A program made the translations under genes and the position numbers. A stretch of DNA of 44,266 nt from an uncultured Prolixibacteraceae bacterium (GTDB lineage: Bacteria > Bacteroidota > Bacteroidia > Bacteroidales > Prolixibacteraceae), in the NCBI GenBank assembly GCA_903865775.1, contig CAIPKZ010000271.1, positions 1-44,266 of the forward strand, given 5' to 3'. The notes beneath the pieces were generated by a model, which saw only the letters and a program-made list of their open reading frames with translations, made no database searches and was not told where the DNA came from. Positions 21,677-22,429 of this stretch are shown here, in pieces. Positions within the stretch are counted from its first letter, which is position 1. Each line of letters starts with the position of its first letter.

Positions 21677-22429
21677 TCATTTCTTCTTTCTCGTCAAATC
21701 CAGCAAACCATTAATAATGGTCAGCGGATGAGCCGGATTGCCCGGGATGTAAAGATCAACTGGGTATTTATCCAGAAAGCTTCGGTCGATTGCTGCGCTG
21801 TTTCCCAGAATTCCACCACTGATGGCATCGGTTCCGACCAAAACGATAATCTTGGGTTCAGGAATGGCATCGTAACAAATCTGGAGCGGGATAGCCATAT
21901 TTTCTGTAATCGGACCGGTAATAACAATGCCATCGGCATGGCGCGGCGAAGCCACAAAATCGATCCCGAAACGACTCATGTCGAACTGCACATTATTGGA
22001 GGCATTCAGTTCCATCTCACAACTGTTATCGCCACCGGCACTCACTTGCCTCAACTTCAAAGATTTTCCAAATACCCTGCGGATTTCAGCCCTGACAGTT
22101 TCCGAATTAACCGAAATCGGATGGTCTTCACCTTCTTTGACGATCAACAGTTCACGTTGATTAGTTGAAATCTTGTAGTCCGTCGTAAATTTTATCTTTT
22201 CAGGAAACCGCCTGGCACACTCGCCGCAGAAAGTACATTTCCCGAGGTCGATACTTACCGGACCGGCCGAAATCGCTTCAACCGGACACAATTCAACCAG
22301 TTCTGCATCGTTCACTTTTTCAGAACTGATTACCGGTCGTCCTCTGAAAATGCCCGGAACTTTGGCCGTGGTAACATCAGGAATATATTGTTTCCCCTGA
22401 TGGTAGACTATTTTTACGTTATCGAACAT
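21677..22429 (-). CDS. HycG/HyfI/NuoB-like small subunit with N-terminal ferredoxin domain, degenerate Fe-S ligands (Ehr-like complex)
   Basis: IFRGRPVIS...CPVEAISAGPVSIDLGKCTFCGECARRFP ferredoxin half; NuoB-like IVITGPITENM, VLVGTDAISGG, IPGNPAHPLTIINGLL. Confidence 0.85.
   Translation of the reverse strand: MFDNVKIVYHQGKQYIPDVTTAKVPGIFRGRPVISSEKVNDAELVELCPVEAISAGPVSIDLGKCTFCGECARRFPEKIKFTTDYKISTNQRELLIVKEGEDHPISVNSETVRAEIRRVFGKSLKLRQVSAGGDNSCEMELNASNNVQFDMSRFGIDFVASPRHADGIVITGPITENMAIPLQICYDAIPEPKIIVLVGTDAISGGILGNSAAIDRSFLDKYPVDLYIPGNPAHPLTIINGLLDLTRKKK

Follow-up and report, generated by a model that had tools for sequence, protein, structure and literature searches.

An energy-converting hydrogenase-related operon with a fused small subunit that keeps the ligands of the medial iron–sulfur cluster

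Why would a ferredoxin domain built for two iron–sulfur clusters keep the ligands of one and lose those of the other? The question is raised by a small subunit encoded in the window, the 44,266-nucleotide contig of an uncultured Prolixibacteraceae bacterium that was analysed here. In 2[4Fe–4S] domains the ligands are crossed: cluster I is bound by C1–C3 with C8, and cluster II by C5–C7 with C4. The initial annotation had read C4–C7 as kept, C1–C3 as absent and C8 as replaced by Phe. Translation of the open reading frame (N-terminal part, RGRPVISSEKVNDAELVELCPVEAISAGPVSIDLGKCTFCGECARRFPEKI) and alignment to E. coli HycF confirmed both the sequence and the coordinates (Table 1).

Table 1. Genes and cluster-ligand positions of the operon, in window coordinates.
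Feature	Position	Strand	Remark
Small subunit, 250 aa	21677..22429	-	N-terminal NuoI/HycF-like ferredoxin domain fused to C-terminal NuoB/HycG-like domain
Former C1–C3 loop, residues 37–47	22289..22321	-	EKVNDAELVEL, cysteine-free; alignment
Cys48 (C4), last remaining motif I ligand	22286..22288	-	invariant in 153 homologues
Cys65, Cys68, Cys71 (C5, C6, C7), cluster II ligands	22217..22237	-	CTFCGEC, invariant; C5 at 22235–22237, C6 at 22226–22228, C7 at 22217–22219
Phe75 at C8 position, lost cluster I ligand	22205..22207	-	alignment
Asp134, first N2-ligand position	22028..22030	-	Cys in 49/49 N2-intact relatives
Cys137, second N2-ligand position	22019..22021	-	present in most clade members; elsewhere in the clade Ala, Tyr or Asn
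Asp201, third N2-ligand position	21827..21829	-	alignment
Asn231, fourth N2-ligand position	21737..21739	-	alignment
Large subunit (HycE/HyfG/NuoCD-like), 500 aa	22802..24304	-	without NiFe cysteines; sequence comparison with HycE
HyfF-like antiporter-type membrane subunit	24308..25735	-	TM5 Glu, TM7 Lys, TM12 Lys conserved
HyfE-like membrane subunit	25941..26573	-	
HyfC/NuoH-like membrane subunit	26592..27497	-	acidic loop intact
HyfB/NuoL-like antiporter-type subunit 2	27500..29527	-	
HyfB/NuoL-like antiporter-type subunit 1	29524..31533	-	

In the E. coli HycF reference, C1–C4 lie in CIGCAACVNACP and C5–C8 in CIFCGRCEEVCP; the HycF stretches aligned to the small subunit are NPQQCIGCAACVNACP and HCIFCGRCEEVCP. 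The positions absent from the small subunit were C1, C2, C3 and C8, leaving four of the eight cysteines of a 2[4Fe–4S] domain of the NuoI/HycF type. The C1–C3 loop of the window clade is two residues shorter than that of intact relatives, and the Pfam Fer4 threshold was barely reached, over C5–C7. By the cross-ligation rule Cys48 is taken to be a ligand of cluster II, which, from knowledge of NuoI, we take to be the medial cluster and the equivalent of N6b. We infer that C4–C7 would bind one [4Fe–4S] cluster. The terms distal, medial and proximal cluster are used here as in PMC7684303.

A chance occurrence or a wrong reading frame was ruled out by conservation of the open reading frame across 80 close orthologues, the best 80 GTDB loci from Bacteroidota (genera including Paludibacter, Petrimonas, Niastella and Mucilaginibacter, and also Prolixibacteraceae). 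The cysteine pattern was identical in all 80, with Phe at the C8 position in nearly all and Tyr or Ser occasionally. The AlphaFold2 model of the small subunit (mean pLDDT 92, pTM 0.89) matched the folds of HycG, MbhJ and NuoB. Residues 1–108 modelled alone (pLDDT 88.5) matched NuoI chains and HycF with TM-scores of about 0.6–0.65 by query, giving the NuoI-like fold of a 2[4Fe–4S] ferredoxin domain. In the model the fold is intact, and alignment places the four cysteines at the cluster II positions.

The large subunit has AETITGDTVVGH and KSFNLSYAGHDL at the positions of HycE SDRVCGICGFAH and DPCYSCTDR (AETITGDTVVGH against RVCGICGFAH, NLSYAGHDL against DPCYSCTDR). None of the four NiFe cysteines of group 4 [NiFe]-hydrogenases is present, and GDTxxGH is conserved. 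Two HyfB-like subunits, HyfC, HyfE and HyfF, that is, antiporter-like and NuoH-like proteins, form a membrane arm encoded at 24308–31533 in the same operon. With the CxxC pairs that bind NiFe missing and five membrane subunits alongside, the seven genes are assigned to an Ehr (energy-converting hydrogenase-related) complex, kin of group 4 [NiFe]-hydrogenases and complex I. Best scores lay below the NCBIfam curated cut-offs for complex I (NuoB 90 against 116 bits, NuoD 145 against 360, NuoI 26 against 113). The operon order is retained across many genera. No extra conserved redox-partner gene was found beside the window-clade operons, and no separate HycF-like gene supplying cluster I was seen among their neighbours. 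Eleven kb from the Ehr operon, translation read by eye revealed the start of an Nqr operon (NqrA, NqrB; 42279–44264); Nqr is the usual Na+-pumping respiratory enzyme of Bacteroidota.

Residues 110–250 of the small subunit form the NuoB/HycG-like domain, which lacks three of the four ligands of the proximal cluster, N2 (GGDNSC / GTDAISGG / PGNP as against GGCNGC / GACGNSGG / PGCP). The proximal CxxC...C...C ligand set of group 4 [NiFe]-hydrogenases is thus replaced by Asp134, Cys137, Asp201 and Asn231. Across 69 Ehr small subunits, the three lost positions were Asp, Asp and Asn in all 20 window-clade rows and Cys in the other 49; no other positions of the small subunit set the clade apart so sharply. 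Alongside these, the sharpest clade-specific difference of the large subunit was Ser139, present in 20/20 window-clade rows where 49/49 others have Gly. The initial annotation had spoken of the loss of exactly one of two clusters; this holds for the ferredoxin half and understates the change, as the N2 and NiFe sites are gone as well.

How far this arrangement departs from known systems was assessed by comparison. Published Ehr complexes have the same operon content (HyfB, HyfC, HyfE, HyfF, large and small subunits), and their large subunits lack the NiFe cysteines (PMC6349859, PMC10284858, PMC7304191). Those descriptions name loss of the NiFe cysteines alone, whereas here cluster I and N2 are lost too. 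In the papers compared, which did not include the review that founded the Ehr concept (BBA, doi 10.1016/j.bbabio.2012.09.017), no account of an Ehr complex lacking cluster I or N2 was met. Group 4 [NiFe]-hydrogenases (E. coli FHL-1 HycF, HycG and HycE; hydrogenase 4) share the subunit folds and the large-subunit GPxHxxxxEPGHFR and HRGxE motifs; they differ in having a NiFe site, an N2 site and two ferredoxin clusters rather than one, and in keeping HycF and HycG separate where they are fused here.

The MBS/Mbx sulfane reductase resembles the present complex in having lost NiFe, kept the membrane arm and altered the proximal coordination. Nevertheless, MBS retains distal, medial and proximal clusters, the proximal one being catalytic (PMC7684303), while here the distal and proximal clusters are gone, and Asp, Asp and Asn occupy three of the four positions where MBS/Mbx has a proximal cluster with three Cys ligands. 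Relative to NuoI/NuoB of respiratory complex I (N6a, N6b, N2), the retained cluster II is the N6b counterpart; the N6a and N2 ligands are lost, and the NADH module is not encoded alongside. Single-cluster ferredoxins (Pyrococcus furiosus, Desulfovibrio gigas FdII) likewise have a 2[4Fe–4S] fold cut to one cluster. They keep cluster I and lose cluster II, and the small subunit is their reverse.

Of 294 genomes from a second class of Bacteroidota, 53 also carried a fused small subunit. By their large subunits all loci of this second class are Ehr, except L195, a true hydrogenase locus. Many retain all eight ferredoxin cysteines and the four N2 cysteines, and in L191 and L192 the cluster I cysteines are intact by alignment. 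In others N2 is intact and cluster I is lost, with C8 changed to Ser (L141, L148, L156, L157, L159, L164–L166, L173, L175, L177, L178) or to Phe (L172). Cluster I is incomplete, again with N2 intact, in L145 (C1 retained, C8 to Tyr), L151 (C3 retained, C8 to Ser), L179 (C3 retained, C8 to Asn) and L181 (C1 and C3 retained, C2 lost, C8 to Ala). In L174 (1553–2308, minus strand) C2 alone is replaced, by Tyr, and C8 is retained, a ligand set like that of 7Fe ferredoxins; L174 is possibly a first step of cluster I loss.

C2 is missing from every cluster-I-deficient sequence. Because loss of C2 also marks the [3Fe–4S] site of 7Fe ferredoxins, a path from 8Fe through 7Fe to 4Fe is plausible. Altogether, C4–C7 were present in all 153 small subunits and the cluster I set was incomplete in about 112, in a sample gathered by homology and possibly biased against very divergent members.

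Several features of the neighbourhoods were noted in this survey. A gene with HTH and PtsN (EIIA-Ntr)-like domains occurs in 32 of the 55 second-class Ehr loci (L140–L194; for example L172, 454–1140) and heads most of the 32; it is absent from the window clade and suggests phosphotransfer-linked regulation. A gene for a SulP-family anion transporter, possibly for bicarbonate, lies in or beside the Ehr operon at about 10 loci, L142, L158, L168 and L180 among them. One genome of the window's own class (G674, locus L213) encodes an Ehr small subunit in which, in contrast to the window clade, none of the 12 cysteines is missing; it was possibly acquired by horizontal transfer.

Sequences from outside Bacteroidota were drawn from plasmid records. 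Variovorax, Burkholderia and Caballeronia (Pseudomonadota) were intact at 12 of 12 positions. In Allomeiothermus silvanus (Deinococcota) and Mycobacterium branderi (Actinomycetota), C1–C3 are absent, C8 is replaced by Ile and Ala, respectively, and C4–C7 are retained. Both also lack the N2 ligands (GNTGLD/GNE/PGS and GSNGSD/GTD/PGA, respectively), so that the state with cluster II only and with N2 and NiFe gone is found in these two phyla too. On the tree the two rows lie far from the window clade, near intact sequences and on long branches, and their placement is unsure; each has intact relatives outside the window clade. Since they lie apart in this way, it is most likely that at least three lineages came separately to an end state with only the medial-cluster ligands. 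Among the actinobacterial and proteobacterial plasmids, the Ehr operons of L199, L200 and L196 lie near universal stress proteins and DUF190, with CrcB in Burkholderia, and two Ehr-type operons lie next to each other on the Variovorax plasmid. No relatives were found in viral contigs; matches in the phage collection were only distant NuoB matches.

A maximum-likelihood tree was built from both subunits, small and large, after the alignment columns of the motifs and of the N2 ligands had been removed. The window clade grouped as sister to L142 (support 100/99), a locus with the full set of 12 cysteines, within a set holding other intact lineages; three more members of the L142 family (L215–L217) are also intact. 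Parsimony on this tree gave eight changes of cluster I state and one of N2 state. Cluster I was thus lost about eight times within Bacteroidota, an inexact count because backbone resolution is poor for some of the cluster-I-deficient rows. The best-separated loss lineages were L181, L179, the window clade, the L145/L151 group and the L141/L156 group. Along the lineage the losses are nested: NiFe, then cluster I, then N2.

In six independent pairs on starred branches, loss of C8 accompanied that of C1–C3 in 5.7 on average and the reverse order, C1–C3 following C8, was never seen (sign test, p about 0.03). Were cysteines lost at random, the chance of all losses falling in one set would be about 3e-9 if there were six events; with ten, a number that includes poorly resolved forks, it would be about 7e-16. 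The pattern is not due to chance. As the losses obey the cross-ligation rule, the unit of loss is the cluster and not the single residue. The initial annotation had assigned the four missing cysteines to cluster I and the four kept to cluster II, and this correspondence recurs on about eight Bacteroidota branches and in two other phyla. It had also called for a survey of orthologues for joint loss of C1–C3 and C8; independent loss, which would have spoken against its reading, was met in L174 alone.

Comparison of the window gene with its five nearest relatives (dN 0.06–0.11, dS 1.2–1.8) gave a dN/dS of about 0.05–0.08, which at the codon level shows strong purifying selection on the small subunit. 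Both HyfB-like subunits conserve TM5 Glu, TM7 Lys, TM8 Lys and TM12 Lys, and HyfF conserves TM5 Glu, TM7 Lys and TM12 Lys; these residues and the acidic loop of HyfC are kept alike in the clade that lost N2 and in the group that retains it. They are residues required for pumping in the complex-I superfamily. Low dN/dS and intact pump residues together rule out a degenerating gene.

The proposal in the initial annotation of selected loss, as opposed to random decay, therefore stands in its second half. Selected loss itself is undemonstrated, and the wording is too strong because loss of the cofactor followed by drift would give an identical picture. After the loss of one ligand the rest may drift, and relics of stepwise loss exist: L174 lacks C2, L181 lacks C2 and C8, L145 keeps C1, and L151 and L179 keep C3. 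What is well supported is selected retention of cluster II. Alignments show that in the window clade the cluster I ligands and three of the four N2 ligands are gone, the cluster II ligands are invariant and the key charges of the membrane arm are kept. In anatomical terms, it is nearly certain that the distal, proximal and NiFe sites have been lost and that the medial ligands and pump residues have been kept.

What the retained cluster would do follows less directly. With the N2 and NiFe sites gone, it would have no known electron acceptor. In the FHL relay the distances between clusters are below 14 Å (PMC9474812); here both neighbours and the final acceptor site are missing, so cluster II could not serve as a wire. 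Had it merely fed N2 it should have vanished after N2, yet its ligands are invariant in three separate lineages, which suggests a job besides passing electrons along a wire. Cluster II may be kept because it holds together both the ferredoxin domain and the contact of this domain with the NuoB/NuoD-like core, and it might also sense the redox state; the old N2 pocket would have been remade as an Asp/Asp/Asn polar site. The complex would then translocate ions (H+ or Na+) without being powered by a flow of electrons to H+ or quinone. On the simplest reading, cluster II would keep the ferredoxin domain, and the surface by which it meets the core, in shape, and the complex would not be electron-driven. 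A non-wire, ion-translocating complex that keeps its medial cluster is, overall, the best explanation and a reasonably probable one; that the cluster is a structural or gating element on a working ion translocator is favoured by slightly better than even chances. It is also possible that a donor is encoded elsewhere, or that an acceptor lies near Asp134, Cys137, Asp201 and Asn231.

The main rival is a redox switch, in which cluster II would swap single electrons with a soluble carrier (ferredoxin or flavodoxin) and so open or close an ion channel in the membrane arm, with zero net electron flow through the complex. Loops near the proximal site join the peripheral to the membrane arm in MBS and complex I (PMC7684303), so a change beside that site could be passed on, and for FHL a redox-active metal site has been proposed to have a regulatory and not a conducting function (PMC9474812). 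The convergent retention of cluster II is also consistent with a switch. Nevertheless, loss of cluster I takes away the usual point of electron entry and the window-clade operon has no conserved partner gene, and we regard this alternative as rather unlikely; sequence cannot separate it from a purely structural role. Redox catalysis might instead persist, with electrons entering at cluster II and reaching a new cofactor or metal in the old N2/NiFe pocket, made up of Asp134, Cys137, Asp201, Asn231 and the large-subunit GDTxxGH. The clade-specific and nearly invariant Asp134, Asp201 and Asn231 would suit such a site, and MBS offers the precedent of an altered proximal site with a new catalytic role (PMC7684303). 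However, Cys137 varies (Ala, Tyr, Asn) and the other phyla carry different replacements, which argues against one conserved metal site and makes this reading improbable.

Two further alternatives carry little weight. The four cysteines could bind Zn or mononuclear Fe, or form disulfides, in place of a [4Fe–4S] cluster. This is very improbable, since CxxCxxC plus a remote CP in the NuoI fold is the standard [4Fe–4S] arrangement, the Fer4 match falls on C5–C7 and the fold matches NuoI/HycF chains. The stepwise loss of redox sites along the lineage would be expected of an unused enzyme decaying neutrally on its way to being lost. That explanation is scarcely credible given the dN/dS, the invariant pump residues, the operon order kept in many genera and the convergent retention of cluster II.

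The coupling of electron transfer to ion pumping in complex I remains a matter of debate. A conserved, naturally occurring relative with the wire missing on either side of one cluster and the pump residues intact is a ready test of the non-conducting roles of the peripheral arm. The repeated loss, cluster by cluster, is evolutionary support for cross-ligation in 2[4Fe–4S] domains, and the nested distribution gives an order in which such a wire can be dismantled. Somewhat short of an even chance, and put forward tentatively, is the wider reading that in at least three phyla machines of the complex-I superfamily convergently gave up electron transfer, keeping the ion arm and a stranded medial [4Fe–4S] cluster with a structural or redox-gating role. 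If true, some members of the superfamily would pump without redox chemistry as the driving force.
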